Below, piece after piece: positions 10,008 to 38,512 of a stretch of DNA of 42,492 nt (positions are counted from its first letter, which is position 1; every line of letters starts with the position of its first letter). Origin of the DNA: Candidatus Gottesmanbacteria bacterium (GTDB taxonomy: Bacteria > Patescibacteriota > Microgenomatia > UBA10105 > UBA927); NCBI GenBank assembly GCA_016218215.1, contig JACREM010000057.1:1-42492 (forward strand). The letters are read 5' to 3'. The notes below the pieces were generated by a model, which was not told the DNA's origin, ran no database searches, and saw only the letters and a list, made by a program, of their open reading frames with translations. A program made the translations under genes and the position numbers.

Positions 10008-11017
10008 GAGCTTGGTCCGAAACTCCTTGCAGATTGATTTGATAACGAAATAAGCAGCTGACATCCTGAATATGTAGTTCTGACGCTACGGAAGGAGGCC
10101 AACTGCCTATGAAATATATATCTCGTTTTCCCACGAAAGTAAAATTGCTTTTGGAGCTAGAATATCCTCTCATTGACCAACTCTTGCCTCGAAAAGGATT
10201 CATTGGCGGGAGGATTGGATACTCTAAGCCGTTGGTATTTAAATGGCTGTTAGTGAAAAAGGTGACCAACTGGGCATACCGTACGATCACGGAACTTTCC
10301 GGTATCTCCCACCAAACATTTGTGCGAAGAAATCAGGATTTTCTTGCCCATCAGGTCTATCAACAATTTTTCCAACATCTCGTGAAAACAGCGGTAAATC
10401 ATGGATTCATTCGTGGAGTCAAGGTCGCTCTTGATTCTTCATTTGTCTCAACATACAGCTCCAAACGAGAACTGGGAAGTGACGGGTGGAATGGATTCAA
10501 ACAATCCTTCGGGTTTAAACTCCATGCTCTCATTGATACTGAAACCAGGTTTCCGATTGCCCTCATCATCACCAACGGACTGGCTGCCGATTGTACACTG
10601 GCCATCCCTTTGCTTAAGAAGGCAAAACGATATCTGAAGAAAAAGGGGTATGTGCTTGCAGATAAAGGATACGATGACAGCGATATCATCAACTGGATTG
10701 TGAAGATGCTTCATTTTAAAGCAGGAATACCGATGCGGAAGAAAAGCAGACTCGCCAAGGGCAAGAAAAACAGATATGGCAATCTCCTCAACTGGCGAAT
10801 GAAGGCCGTAGGGAGAACCTTCAAAAAATCTATATACAAGTTTCGAACCGAAGTAGAACGCTTTTTCTCCCAGATCAAACACACATATCATCTGGGAAAA
10901 GAATATTGTCGGGGAATTGAAGCATTTACCAAAAACGTCTATCTGGCCTTGATTTCCTTTTGTCTTACCAAGCTTTATGGCGTTGGAATGAGGAGTTTTT
11001 AATTATGGACCAAGCTC
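10008..11017 (+). mobile_element. Complete insertion sequence (~1010 bp), IS5-like
   Basis: Perfect 11-bp terminal inverted repeats GAGCTTGGTCC (10008-10018) / GGACCAAGCTC (11007-11017), flanked by direct repeat AACAGTA (10001-10007, 11018-11024). Confidence 0.9.
10109..11002 (+). CDS. DDE transposase (IS4/IS5-like)
   Basis: VALDSSFV, ADKGYDD, FRTEVERFFSQIKHTY; SD GAAGGAGG upstream. Confidence 0.9.
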   Translation: MKYISRFPTKVKLLLELEYPLIDQLLPRKGFIGGRIGYSKPLVFKWLLVKKVTNWAYRTITELSGISHQTFVRRNQDFLAHQVYQQFFQHLVKTAVNHGFIRGVKVALDSSFVSTYSSKRELGSDGWNGFKQSFGFKLHALIDTETRFPIALIITNGLAADCTLAIPLLKKAKRYLKKKGYVLADKGYDDSDIINWIVKMLHFKAGIPMRKKSRLAKGKKNRYGNLLNWRMKAVGRTFKKSIYKFRTEVERFFSQIKHTYHLGKEYCRGIEAFTKNVYLALISFCLTKLYGVGMRSF

Positions 11018-11055: not shown

Positions 11056-11397
11056 TTATGGCACGAATTTGTGTTGCTCTGGAGTCCATGCGGGAGTACA
11101 GGGCATGAACATGGTGAGATTTCCTTCCCAGTAAAATTTTTCTCCTGGCTCAATAAGTACTACATCACCGAACTGTAAGAAGACTTTTTTCCCTTCAACA
11201 ACTACTGATCCCGTACCATTTATGACGTATATAAGTTCTTTGCATAGAGTATTGGCCGTTCTTCCTGTCTCTGGATATCTGCCTTTCAGTTCTACGATTA
11301 CTGCATTGATGTCACGATCTCCCAGTGGATATTCGTGCGCTATGCACGACTTGCTATTGGAATATTTTATAGATTGGATCGATGGAATATGTTTCAT
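11056..11397 (-). CDS. Small cupin-domain protein
   Basis: ELIYVINGTGSVVVEGKKVFLQFGDVVLIEPGEKFYWEG. Confidence 0.85.
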   Translation of the reverse strand: MKHIPSIQSIKYSNSKSCIAHEYPLGDRDINAVIVELKGRYPETGRTANTLCKELIYVINGTGSVVVEGKKVFLQFGDVVLIEPGEKFYWEGNLTMFMPCTPAWTPEQHKFVP

Positions 11398-12803
11398 CTA
11401 TGTGTATTCTCTGTCAGTTTTATGATTTTTTGTATCATTCGTAAAAATGAGGGTTGAGTATTGTATTTCTGTGCTTCGATTAATGGTATCCATCGTACAT
11501 CACGAGATTCGTGGCTTATTGTGAGCGGTTCGCTAAAATCAGCGATAAGGAGTATTCGTATATCAAAATGATCGTGGGCAATCTTTTTATTGTGAGCTGG
11601 GATTGTATGCACGTCAACGTCGAATATTCCTTTGCATTTTGGAGTATCGTCTAAATGTTTTAGTCCTGATTCTTCAAAAGCTTCGCGTTTGGCGACGGCA
11701 AAGGTGTTGTTTTCTCCATCGGAATGTCCGCCAAATTGTACCCATATGTTGAGTTTTTTGTGATGCGTGAGAAGTGTGTGGGTAAAGGTATGGTTCACGA
11801 TAAACGCAGAACCGGTCACATGACCTGAGGTGTTTTCATGATCAAAACAATGTATATCATCCTCGATAAACGAAATTATTTTTCTTCTCGATTGTTCTTC
11901 ATTTGTATCATGAGACCTGTATTTACTTAGGTGTTCAAGAATAAAATTTCGTTTGTCGTTTTTATCCCAAAAATAATTACTAGTTGGTGATAGAAAATTT
12001 TGTCCGGTTACCACATTTTTTCCTATTTTTTGTTCGAGCGCGATTCTTGCGTCTTTGGCGATTTTTCCACCTTTTCTTGCCGGTATTTTATTTTCTTCTA
12101 ATCCCTCTGTATTATCCTTTTCAGAAATTTTTCTGGTAGAAAGTTCTGCGAGGGCAGTAAAAATCAATTCTTCTTCACTCATATGATCCCGTAAATTCTG
12201 CGTTTTTAATCCTTTCAGGTTTTTATGATCTTTCACAGATAAATCGCTCCATTCCTGATGGATAATATTCGTTAATATTGCAAATTCTTCACCCTTTTTT
12301 ACGCTATGGCTGCTCCAATAATCAGTAAGTTTATTTCGTGTTTCTTGTCCCATCATTCGTTGTTGTATCCATTTTTCGCTTCGGCCCTGTTTTTGCCAAT
12401 ACTCTCTTGAACGATTGAGCGCTTTTTCTGGATCGTTCATTTCCTGCATTCTCTCGTATCCGACTTTGGCGAGCCAAAGTTTTATTGGTTCAGCCTTTTT
12501 ACTTGGAACGGATTGAATAAGTCTAAGAATCGTTTCGACATTGGCTACATCTGTTTTGTAAAATTTACCATCGGTAGATTGCATTTTCAGTTGGTCACAT
12601 TTTGTGACCAACTGACTTCCTTCATTCTTTAGTCGATTTTTTAAAGTAGTCCAATAGCTTTTTGCTTTTTTAAAATTGATTTGATCTGTTAATGCGGCGA
12701 CAATATCAATTACCGAAAAGAACCAAGATTCACTTTTTTTGTCATAAAAGCGTCGAATTTTAAAATTTTCGAAGATAGCAAGTGAGTTTTGAGTATTTTG
12801 CAT
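11394..12803 (-). CDS. Bro-N/DinD-like domain protein fused to C-terminal Nudix hydrolase domain
   Basis: N-term IRRFYDKKSESWFFSVIDIVAALTD...; DinD-like KNLKGLKTQNLRDHM...; C-term GHVTGSAFIVN...FGGHSDGENNTFAVAKREAFEESGL Nudix-box. Confidence 0.85.
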   Translation of the reverse strand: MQNTQNSLAIFENFKIRRFYDKKSESWFFSVIDIVAALTDQINFKKAKSYWTTLKNRLKNEGSQLVTKCDQLKMQSTDGKFYKTDVANVETILRLIQSVPSKKAEPIKLWLAKVGYERMQEMNDPEKALNRSREYWQKQGRSEKWIQQRMMGQETRNKLTDYWSSHSVKKGEEFAILTNIIHQEWSDLSVKDHKNLKGLKTQNLRDHMSEEELIFTALAELSTRKISEKDNTEGLEENKIPARKGGKIAKDARIALEQKIGKNVVTGQNFLSPTSNYFWDKNDKRNFILEHLSKYRSHDTNEEQSRRKIISFIEDDIHCFDHENTSGHVTGSAFIVNHTFTHTLLTHHKKLNIWVQFGGHSDGENNTFAVAKREAFEESGLKHLDDTPKCKGIFDVDVHTIPAHNKKIAHDHFDIRILLIADFSEPLTISHESRDVRWIPLIEAQKYNTQPSFLRMIQKIIKLTENTHR

Positions 12804-12809
12804 GTGTAT

Positions 12810-13988
12810 TTATAATACCTGACTAGTATTTTGATTCTTTTTATAAAGTAACCATCCGGGTAGAGCAACGATCAATGTCAAAACCGCTAATAGTATAAGA
12901 GTATTTTTTATTCCAAACACGTCAATTGCGTATCCGCCCAGAGGCATGGTAATTCCGACGATTATAAATGTCAAAAAACTATAGGTAGAAAGCATGGTGC
13001 TTCTTTCTTCGTTGCTGATTTCTTTTTGAAGCAAAATGAGGAGTATTTGATCTTTATATGATGCCACTAAAAATAAAAGCAGCATTATCGCCACGCCGGC
13101 TATGGAGTTTATTTTACTCAATGTCAAAAAAGCAAGAGATGTAAGAACTATACTCAGGGATAATGAGAAGTTTGAACCAATTTTTGGAGAATTTTATATG
13201 TGTATATAGAAATAGGCGCTTTGCATCCGGAAAATATGGCAGCAATGGCTCCAAGAAAGGCAATTGGTATCCCAAGTGTAATTTGTAGAGGTTGATGCAT
13301 GTTGTTTGCATAAAGACTTCCGACAAAAAATAAGGTAGAGCCAATGATAATCAGTCCAAAGATGTGCTTATTGGTGAATGATAATAGAACACCCTTTTTT
13401 ATTTTTTGAAAATATATTTGAAGAGACGGTCTATCACCTTTGAATTCCCATCGTATGAGATAGATAAGAAGTGCAGACAAAAATAAAAATATTGAAGATA
13501 CTATATACGGTAACTGCGGAAATTCCTTATACATGAAAGAAACCAAAGGACTTGCAAGGAGTGTACCGAGTAAAAGATATGCACTTATTTTCCCTTGAAC
13601 TTTGGGGTATTCCTCACTCTTGTCCTGACGCAGTAATATGTCGTGGGTCAGTGAAGAAAACGCTCCCGATTGGAGTGCGATTCCACTTCCGGCCCAGAAC
13701 CGAGCCTGTTAAAAATATTGGGAATATAGGATTGATAGCAACAATGAGAGGAGCAAATGCGTGAATCACGAGGCCCCAAAAGACAGAAGTTTTGTGTCCA
13801 AAAGTATCGGCAAACCCGCCTGTTGGAATCTCAAGAAGTGCGTAGCAGATAAAAAATACAGATGAAAGCAAAGCGATCTCAGTCTGATTTAGCCCATTTG
13901 AAAGTCTATATAGAGTTTCTATTACCGCGACAGCGTATGCCGCACCCATGAAAAAATTTGCAGTATATATTTTGTAAATTTCTCTCAT
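12810..13988 (-). pseudogene. MFS transporter with two frameshifts
   Basis: Three consecutive minus-strand fragments (…GGFADTFGHKTSVFWG…; …MVSFMYKEFPQLPYIVSSI…; …GGYAIDVFGIKNTLIL…) joined by frame changes near 13690 and 13168. Confidence 0.85.
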
Positions 13989-14005
13989 AGCGAATTTATT
14001 TTTAC

Positions 14006-14671
14006 TCACGGGCATCGCTCCGATTTTATGTAACCCGCCGCTTGCGCTTCTTTCTCGGTGCAAAACCACTGTTCGCCGACGTCTTCTTCTACGACCGCAA
14101 ATGGGTACTGAGTGCACCCGGGCATGTGATATGTTTTTCTTGTCCTGTCTATATTTCCTTTTATGGTACAGTTTGGGTTTTTAGTATTGGTCATAGACTG
14201 ACACGTGCCATACAGTCCAAGATTGTTTCCTTTTGCGTCGTCTGCCACTCTTTTAAGTGCCTCTGTTTGTGACGTTTTGTCACTATGATACCGCGCAAAC
14301 CCTCCGGCAAGAAGTTCTTTATTTACGAGCGTGTCTCTCGCGTATACGAGCGCCATGCCTCGGCCTTGTTGATCCGGGATCTGCTCGGTTATCCAGACTC
14401 GTTTTCCGGAGACGAGTTCTTCAAGTTTTTTCTTTGCCTCCTGCCCGCCGCATAGTTCAAGTTCCGGCGCATCGAGCTGGCGCAGTCGTAAACGTTCTTT
14501 ATTTTCGAGAATGAGTGTATCACCGTCATAGACCGAGATCACTCCGACTCCCTGAGTATATTCCAGTGTTTTTTCTCGGTATAAAAGTATGCCGTTGAGG
14601 ATAAAAGAGGGAATAAAGAGGAGGGCAAAAATAGTTGCAAGTCGAGGTAAAATTGTCGCCTTCTTGACCAT
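14006..14671 (-). CDS. Thermonuclease (SNase)-like protein with Cys-containing C-terminal module
   Basis: VISVYDGDTLILENKERLRLRQLDAPEL, GRGMALVYARDTLVNKELLAGGFAR. Confidence 0.92.
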   Translation of the reverse strand: MVKKATILPRLATIFALLFIPSFILNGILLYREKTLEYTQGVGVISVYDGDTLILENKERLRLRQLDAPELELCGGQEAKKKLEELVSGKRVWITEQIPDQQGRGMALVYARDTLVNKELLAGGFARYHSDKTSQTEALKRVADDAKGNNLGLYGTCQSMTNTKNPNCTIKGNIDRTRKTYHMPGCTQYPFAVVEEDVGEQWFCTEKEAQAAGYIKSERCP

Positions 14672-14675
14672 GTGA

Positions 14676-15452
14676 TCAGTATATCATTTCATTTTTATAT
14701 TTTCGTAATTTATTTCCAAGTAGAGTATTAAGGTGGGAGTGAGGAAATAAATCTTTTGGGTATAGAGAGATTACCTTCAATTTATATTTTTGTATCATCT
14801 TTAATTTTTTCTTCATAAGAGCATCATATCTTTTTAGTTGTCCTTGTAATCCAAAAAACTCTATGAGCGTTTTTCCTATTTTAAAGTCTGCAGTAAATCG
14901 ATCCTGTGGATATGGGACGTTTCGCTCATGAGGAATTTTATTGGTTGATAGCCAATCGTCGATAATCTTTTCAGAAAATGAGTCACACTTATGGCCATCC
15001 TGTGCGATAAATTTTTTTGCAAACAAAACTGGATTTGGTGAAAATCCCGCTTCTCGGATGGCAGAATTCCAAGAATCGAATGTTCGATAATAAGATCCAT
15101 AGTGACTGTAGAAGTCTCTTTTTGTAGGGATGCGTTTATGTTTGGTGGCAAATTCAATTAATAGTTGTAGTAAATGTTTTCTTGAGTATTGAATTTGAAA
15201 ATGATGTGGGGTGTTGATGCCGCCTTTTCGATTAAAAATAGCCCTTACGGATGGAGATATTTTTTCTATTCCATTTCTATAGCCACGAAGTTGCAATTCG
15301 ATTTTTTGAGATTTGCGTAAATGAATATGTCGCGTGTAATAAAAAGATGATCCTAAAGAGATAGACAATTTTTTTGCAATATCTCTGAAGCTGTTACCTT
15401 TTACACGAAGTAGACATGCATTTTTCTTTATGTCTTTGGGCAGTTTATTCAT
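14676..15452 (-). CDS. Putative PD-(D/E)XK (Vsr/DUF559-like) homing-type endonuclease with homing-endonuclease-associated repeat
   Basis: HTH (SFRDIAKKLSIS), repeat RIPTKRDFYSHYGSYYRTFDSWNSAIREAGFSPN, nuclease-like SFSEKIIDDWL...FTADFKIGKTLIEFFG...KKKLKMIQKYKLKVI; start trimmed from 15524 since the extension is tRNA. Confidence 0.65.
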   Translation of the reverse strand: MNKLPKDIKKNACLLRVKGNSFRDIAKKLSISLGSSFYYTRHIHLRKSQKIELQLRGYRNGIEKISPSVRAIFNRKGGINTPHHFQIQYSRKHLLQLLIEFATKHKRIPTKRDFYSHYGSYYRTFDSWNSAIREAGFSPNPVLFAKKFIAQDGHKCDSFSEKIIDDWLSTNKIPHERNVPYPQDRFTADFKIGKTLIEFFGLQGQLKRYDALMKKKLKMIQKYKLKVISLYPKDLFPHSHLNTLLGNKLRKYKNEMIY

Positions 15453-15454
15453 TG

Positions 15455-15528
15455 TCGGGGTGGCCGGTCCCGCCCCGGCAACCTCTCGCACCCCATGCGA
15501 GTGCGCTAGCTTATTGCGCCACACCCCG
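15455..15528 (-). tRNA. tRNA-Pro(GGG), non-canonical elbow
   Basis: Cloverleaf: CGGGGTG/CACCCCG acceptor, GCGC/GCGC D-stem, CTCGC-ATGGGGT-GCGAG anticodon arm, GCCGG-GGCGGGA-CCGGC T arm. Confidence 0.8.
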
Positions 15529-37688: not shown

Positions 37689-38512
37689 TTGGAGTTAATT
37701 AACTCTATGGATACAACAAAAATTTCTCTCTTTAAAGGGAAACAAATCAGAAAAACATTATTTAATAATGAGTGGTGGTTCGTGGTGGAAGATGTAGTTT
37801 TGGCACTTATTGATTCAAGTGATCCCAAACAATATATCCAACGCATGAAACAGCGAGATGTTGAGCTTGCTAAAGGGTGGGTACAAATTGTACATACCCT
37901 TGAAGTTTCAACAGAGGGTGGTAAGCAAAAAATGCTTTGTGCTTCCACTGAGAGTATATTTCGTATAATTCAGTCAATTCCATCCCAGAAAGCAGAACCT
38001 CTTAAGCGTTGGCTAGCTCGAGTAGGATATGAGAGAGTACAGGAAATAGAAAATCCAGAACTCGCTACAAAGCGCACTCGGATGCTCTATAAATTGAAAG
38101 GATATAGCGATGATTGGATAGAAAAAAGGATGCGCGGTATCGCTATCCGGGAAGAGCTTACTGATGAATGGCAAAAGCGGGGAGCAAGAGAGGACAGAGA
38201 TTACGAAATATTGACTGCAGAAATTTCCAAGCCACATTTGGAGTCACGCCGAGTGAGTATAAGAAATTGAAAGGCCTGCGACGTGAGAATTTGCGCGATC
38301 ACATGGATGATTTTGAGTTGATTTTTAATATGTTGGGAGAACGGGCTACTACCGAGATCCATCGGAATGAGCAATCTCGAGGAGTTTCTAAATTAAAAGC
38401 CGATGCCAAAGCCGGTGGAGATATAGCAGGAGGAGCGAGAAAAAATTTAGAGAAACGACTCGGAAGATCAGTGATCTCAAAGAAAAATTATCTGTACGAA
38501 GCGGAAAATTAA
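37689..38512 (+). pseudogene. Bro-N/DinD-like (phage antirepressor-related) gene with one frameshift
   Basis: ORFs 37689-38270 and 38168-38512 join as ...YEILTAEISK|ATFGVTPSEYKKLKGLRRENLRDHM... if one G is added near 38231. Confidence 0.85.

Follow-up and report, generated by a model that had tools for sequence, protein, structure and literature searches.

Bro-N is one of the commonest domains of phages and mobile elements, and we know of no general DNA target for it. To our knowledge, the Escherichia coli Bro-N protein DinD (b3645) is the product of an orphan SOS gene, known as such and not as a sequence-specific regulator. Operators located inside genes are familiar from autoregulated repressors, as in the cases of lac O2 and gal OI. 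The DdrC protein of Deinococcus radiodurans is induced by DNA damage, forms dimers and binds DNA, and it was reported to do so without sequence specificity (PMC5436757).

In this work, we analysed a window of 42,492 nt from a Candidatus Gottesmanbacteria contig, in which a single gene encodes a DinD-like protein joined to a Nudix hydrolase (table 1). Most probably, the fusion is a one-off joining, and the larger surprise is a widespread DinD-like family with its own probable operator inside the coding sequence. As this operator we propose a palindrome, which was absent from the original prediction, made earlier from the sequence of the window.

The DinD-like half resembles E. coli DinD in its build (Bro-N followed by a helical C-terminal part), in its match to the PADLOC family PDC-S13 and in the presence of a palindrome inside the gene. 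In E. coli, however, the palindrome has a centre of 2 nt instead of the 3 nt found in the window, and the protein has no Nudix domain. Orthology between the two was not indicated, the window DinD half having no NCBIfam match and the two proteins falling under different PDC-S13 profiles. Phage Bro-N/KilAC antirepressors also combine a Bro-N domain with an in-gene palindrome at the matching place, but they have a C-terminal ANT/KilAC domain, which is present in L326 and absent from the Pfam scan of the window ORF.

At the level of structure, a Foldseek search returned DdrC (7qvb, 7udi, 8u0g) as the sole significant fold match (E 2e-6, probability 1.00). Homology to DdrC was not seen in sequence, with 11-13% identity in the fold match and no sequence match in the PDB search. 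The resemblance concerns the fold and the nature of DdrC as a DNA-damage-linked dimer, whereas its reported sequence-unspecific DNA binding differs from the operator binding proposed here. The lac O2 and gal OI systems are alike in having an operator inside a coding sequence; unlike them, the operator proposed here would be part of the very codons that specify the DNA-binding domain of its repressor, superfamily-wide and co-evolving with it. We found no published description of an in-gene Bro-N/DinD operator or of a Bro-N + Nudix protein in the literature searched, which was poor in subscription journals.

The fused gene is a single uninterrupted frame with an ATG start, as had been claimed, and the domains assigned to it were recovered by our searches. 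Residues 4-275 match PDC-S13 (2.6e-117) and phrog_15286 (1.2e-88), in agreement with the predicted DinD-like N-terminal part, while the Pfam Bro-N model over residues 18-113 was marginal (25.3 bits, against a cut-off of 25.6). The C-terminal Nudix call was borne out by PF00293 (22.9 bits, cut-off 21.1) and by PDB entry 3fcm_A (1e-21 over residues 289-463), the Nudix fold being assigned from sequence alone. Even the details given for the Nudix box were accurate, that is, REAFEESGL preserves REUXEE and Asn occupies the Glu position of G-x5-E. Since relatives have Lys (3fcm), Thr (L112) or Ser (L113) at that position, the change is a trait typical of the subfamily. Besides this altered position, the window protein shares with the 3fcm-type hydrolase a match over its full length and a common GGHSD box, but the latter stands alone, whereas the Nudix part of the window is a C-terminal tail without a start of its own.

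Table 1. Features of the fused gene and of the in-gene palindrome (positions in the window)
Feature	Position	Strand	Evidence
Whole ORF, DinD-like Bro-N protein + Nudix hydrolase (469 aa)	11394..12803	-	Domain searches
DinD-like half, residues 1-276, full length	11976..12803	-	PDC-S13 match; stand-alone relatives stop at the same point
Nudix half, residues 283-463, full length	11415..11957	-	3fcm_A match; stand-alone relative L111
Nudix box GGHSDGENNTFAVAKREAFEESGL	11661..11732	-	ORF translation; homologue alignments
Fusion junction, Tyr277 (TAT) through Asn282 (AAC)	11958..11975	-	Comparison with L009 and L111
In-gene palindrome TCAGTTGGTCACA-AAA-TGTGACCAACTGA, proposed operator of own product	12587..12615	-	Synonymous-shuffle controls; covariation
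First helix of predicted winged helix-turn-helix, residues 31-39	12687..12713	-	AlphaFold2
Predicted recognition helix, residues 44-60	12624..12674	-	AlphaFold2; mutual information
Predicted wing beta-hairpin, residues 70-87	12543..12596	-	AlphaFold2 (strands 70-75, 81-87); covariation of residues 81-82

The source genome is metagenome-assembled (1.27 Mb, 97% complete, 96 contigs). Just upstream of the fused gene, an MFS transporter gene (12810-14117, minus strand) is apparently in pieces, in different frames. On the other side, a cupin gene (11056-11397, minus strand) shares 4 nt (ATGA) with the end of the Nudix half, and the two are probably translationally coupled; a DDE transposase of an insertion sequence (10109-11002, plus strand) is found close downstream. 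Farther away, at 14676-15524 (minus strand), an ORF with a homing-endonuclease-associated repeat overlaps a tRNA-Pro (15454-15528).

Stand-alone relatives of both halves show where the two genes meet. Tyr277 aligns with the stop of the close relative L009 (AGTAATTAA vs. AGTAATTAT), the codons being AGT AAT TAT in the window and AGT AAT TAA in L009, and Asn282 is found at the position of the start Met of L111. Among Nudix relatives, L111 is the nearest, a gene of 190 aa that stands alone and is 48% identical over residues 283-459. Given these alignments, the simplest history is the loss of the dinD stop (TAA to TAT) together with the loss of the Nudix start, and the fusion looks like a private gene merger.

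The distribution of relatives points to the same rarity. The 80 closest DinD relatives in GTDB belong to many phyla and are at most 83-85% identical to the window protein; with the exception of two truncated ones, they stop at about 274-292 aa and have no Nudix tail; the closest of all are mostly in Patescibacteria-type genomes. No second DinD-Nudix fusion was present among the approximately 260 DinD-type genes fetched, nor were both halves found in one frame in 96 relatives, 374 genomes of the class, viral contigs or phage and plasmid records. The original prediction had called the architecture unfamiliar, and our search for Bro-N + Nudix indeed returned no record in the genomes, databases and literature searched. 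A fusion seen in one genome only, and hinging on a single base (TAT vs. TAA), might be taken for an assembly or base-calling error in a metagenome-assembled contig. Nevertheless, the Nudix start codon is also gone, so that a restored stop would leave the Nudix domain without a start at the usual place, and we consider such an error unlikely.

Because no other fetched locus had both halves, the DinD relatives lack the tail and L111 stands alone, the dedicated sanitation or signalling effector that had been suggested is unsupported. While the domain calls and the fusion itself hold, the halves show no sign of forming a conserved module. The two domains are intact and of full length, with REUXEE preserved in the Nudix box, as would be expected if the fusion had been selected as a signalling or nucleotide-sanitation effector, but no second case turned up among the 80 nearest relatives, the 96 relatives, the 374 class genomes, the viral, phage and plasmid records or the fetched loci, and DinD-like genes can bear another tail (HTH_3 in the C-terminal fusion at 535-1683 of L192). 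A selected effector is thus very unlikely in our judgment, even slightly more so than an assembly or base-calling error. As for function, "DNA-damage or antirepressor module" is adequate as a family label, but "defence" goes back solely to the PADLOC candidate label PDC-S13, which also takes in E. coli DinD. The defence-related context consists of this label and of one relative, a DinD-like gene on an Arcobacter cloacae plasmid (L109, 4010-4906) located in a type I-B CRISPR operon, where cas4 and cas1 flank it. The first 267 positions of another PADLOC model, Specificity_I (717 aa), also match E. coli DinD.

Codons 63-72 of the DinD half contain a perfect palindrome of 29 nt, made up of 13-bp arms and a 3-nt centre, with the predicted recognition helix encoded on one side of it and the wing on the other. 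Stems of at least 11 bp were found in 39% of 104 relatives, compared with 0.07% after synonymous-codon shuffles, and stems of at least 7 bp fell into the nt 180-210 bin in 80 of the 104 genes, with 10 at most in any other bin. In a set of 221 genes, at least 11 of the 13 pairs were formed in 67%, against 1.2% in synonymous shuffles; all seven core pairs were present in 143 of these 221 relatives, which are 32-100% identical to the window. The synonymous-shuffle controls indicate that the palindrome exceeds what protein constraint would produce. Moreover, its sequence is wholly different between relatives (e.g., GGTTACAAAATGTAACC, TGTACGAAAAAATCGTACA, TGTCCGAAAAAATCGGACA and GGGTATGGACAAATTGTCCATACCC) and occurs in two codon phases, so that, as judged from the sequences, it is the symmetry of the DNA that is conserved and not the peptide.

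Similar palindromes were found in the better known relatives. At least 12 of 13 pairs were formed in 40% of 43 E. coli-type dinD genes (2.3% in shuffles), including a near-perfect palindrome in E. coli K-12 dinD (GACCATTTCGAGGAGATCCTCGATATGGTC), and at least 11 of 13 pairs in 36% of phage Bro-N/KilAC antirepressors (4% in shuffles). In each of 1891 E. coli genomes the K-12 palindrome sequence is present a single time, and all of the near-identical matches listed are located in dinD. E. coli has two dinD alleles (L128, L280-L286), which are only 59% identical over the first 246 nt and 95-98% identical over the next 354 nt, the differing 246 nt including the helix and the palindrome. In the other allele, which is the commoner one and is carried by about two-thirds of E. 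coli, the palindrome is weak, no better than its null. On this pattern of identity, the two alleles would represent a DNA-binding module exchanged within a species.

The way in which paired bases change together bears on what the palindrome is. Among 218 genes, pair 3 is TA in 75, CG in 74, GC in 65 and AT in 2, with mismatches in 2; in the commonest class this involves joint changes of a Val wobble base and of the first base of a nearby Asn/Asp/His/Tyr codon. Pair 9 joins two synonymous sites, GAG/CAG being found with Leu CTG in 104 genes and GAA/CAA with Leu TTG in 76, and no discordant pairing was seen among the commonest combinations in the 218 genes. Pairs 7, 8 and 11 are unconstrained. 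In the 1962 cells of constrained pairs, G.T occurred 12 times and A.C 22 times, that is, G.T is no commoner than A.C. With pairs 7, 8 and 11 free and no excess of G.T, the covariation fits the duplex-DNA contacts of a dimer better than it fits an RNA stem.

Arms of 11-14 bp around a short AT-rich centre would fold in RNA, and in each of the two non-coding arrays described below one palindrome is followed by seven T, so that an mRNA hairpin acting in attenuation, translation control or protection has to be considered instead of a DNA operator. Such a hairpin would not be expected to leave stem pairs 7, 8 and 11 free, to show G.U no more often than A.C or to have bases that covary with residues of the recognition helix and wing, and we regard it as improbable. 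Imperfect palindromes are known to be corrected by template switching between their arms, and the fact that most arms are perfect would be in line with a functionless mutational process of this kind. However, template switching would not spare pairs 7, 8 and 11 yet fix pairs 9 and 10, it cannot make bases track distant residues and it gives no reason for one site kept across many phyla and three subfamilies, all of which makes it the least credible of the explanations. The rejection of these two explanations, the RNA hairpin and the purely mutational one, is based on the pair covariation in the 218 genes.

The protein side of the covariation was studied with an AlphaFold2 model (71 sequences, one plasmid-record row left out; mean pLDDT 90.4), which has an N-terminal winged helix-turn-helix; neither the model nor the Pfam scan indicated a recombinase or cleavage domain in the protein. 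Mutual information was calculated for half-site bases against those protein columns that the palindrome codons do not encode. Half-site positions 0-6 covary with residues 43, 48, 49, 52, 53, 56 and 57, and positions 8-9 with residues 81-82 (base 9 with the wing); in the model, these residues map to one face of the recognition helix and to the second wing strand. The correspondences take the form of a code, in which Arg57 goes with T0G1 and Lys57 with A0T1, Lys53 with C3 and Val53 with A3, and Tyr82 with C9 and Arg82 with T9. In the E. coli-type dinD set of 43 genes, the helix residues covarying with palindrome bases are 35, 37 and 38.

When recombination swaps modules, helix and operator are passed on as a linked pair, which inflates some of these covariation counts, as the E. 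coli dinD alleles illustrate. When residues 38-92 were left out of the tree, joint change of residue 82 and of the synonymous base 9 was seen in about 25 of 25 independent pairs (p ~6e-8). On the module's own tree the agreement was 9 of 9 (p 0.004), suggesting that swapping is not the full explanation. Additionally, nine residues predicted the half-site correctly in 93% of cases from genes less than 60% identical (51% for random residues) and in 79% from genes less than 50% identical, values that are somewhat optimistic since the nine residues were chosen on the same genes. The covariation predicts a cognate site within the protein's own gene. These data lead us to the strong inference that the protein forms a winged-helix dimer and has its own in-gene palindrome as operator, with TGTNACCnnYT as the predicted half-site in the commonest class.

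Searches of whole genomes suggest that the sites are nearly confined to DinD-like/Bro-N genes. In the genome of the window, the core 17-mer (with up to two mismatches) occurs three times, each inside a DinD-like gene, and seven of the eight exact GGTTACAAAWTGTAACC sites in 315 genomes are in DinD genes. The TGTACGANNNNNTCGTACA sites in 240 genomes number 10, with 6 at DinD gene positions, 1 in a decayed copy and 3 in non-coding DNA. A second copy of the operator within 1.5 kb of the gene is uncommon, with a close match in 5 of 218 cases, two of which are a tandem gene pair; in a verrucomicrobial DinD-like gene (L060, near 4946), an extra copy is found approximately 60 nt upstream of the start codon. 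The window has a second DinD-like gene (37689-38509, plus strand), 39% identical and split into two frames, which still has its own, different palindrome at 37872-37899.

The three non-coding TGTACGANNNNNTCGTACA sites are in two stretches, both of them arrays of 4-6 palindromes of several operator classes. One array (L368, 8340-8620; G454:C25, ~96340-96620) consists of six operator-like palindromes about 45 bp apart, adjoining a HEPN/MNT-like gene pair in a genome with a single intact DinD-like gene, which belongs to a different class. The other (L373, 1350-1530; G577:C6, near 52587) has four, of three classes, one of them followed by the run of seven T in a terminator-like arrangement. The presence of such arrays in two genomes suggests that the palindromes have other uses besides self-repression.

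Our preferred reading, to which we assign a probability of roughly 0.7, is a private DinD-Nudix merger in which the protein binds its in-gene operator, limits its own expression by a roadblock and forms a transferable, self-regulated unit. A dimer of the DinD-like protein would bind the palindrome about 200 nt downstream of the start, inside its own coding sequence, and would plausibly block transcription there, repression being deduced from the position of the site. The bound dimer would act as a roadblock and thereby provide a negative feedback independent of the promoter. Because the operator is inside the gene, the switch would travel with it, and feedback of this type would suit a gene whose genomic surroundings differ so widely, with one copy lying between cas4 and cas1 and others fused to other genes. 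Damage to DNA or infection by a phage might perhaps draw the protein off the operator, with a rise in expression; release by damaged DNA is a guess by analogy, prompted by the likeness in fold to DdrC. In the genome of the window, loss of the dinD stop would have brought the adjoining Nudix gene into frame, so that the Nudix domain would be made only as the tail of a DNA-binding protein and under the same feedback.

Within-genome paralogues raise the question of a different use of the site. None of 88 paralogue pairs share the same half-site, with 3.2 expected, although this deficit is borderline (Poisson ~0.04). Together with the exchange, between E. coli dinD alleles, of their first 246 nt with both the helix and the palindrome, and with the mixture of operator classes in the non-coding arrays, it would be compatible with an operator by which related mobile genes recognise one another (for incompatibility, immunity or recombination) and not one of simple self-repression; with a deficit of this size and a protein devoid of recombinase or cleavage domains, we hold this to be doubtful, if clearly less so than the hairpin. 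In a broader and speculative version, to which we give slightly more credit, Bro-N/DinD would be a superfamily of self-addressed DNA-binding proteins, in which helix, operator and wing form one swappable cassette that gives each mobile gene a private identity code, paralogues keep different codes and the non-coding arrays, made up of foreign operator codes, act against incoming Bro-N genes, either as decoys or as sensors.

Should the protein indeed target the palindrome, a large Bro-N family would carry its binding site within its own gene, together with a readable recognition code. Self-repression from within the gene suggests a way by which a gene may take its own regulation through horizontal transfer, into any operon or fusion. 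It would also be a clear case in which the choice of synonymous codons is dictated by the DNA sequence that the encoded protein recognises.
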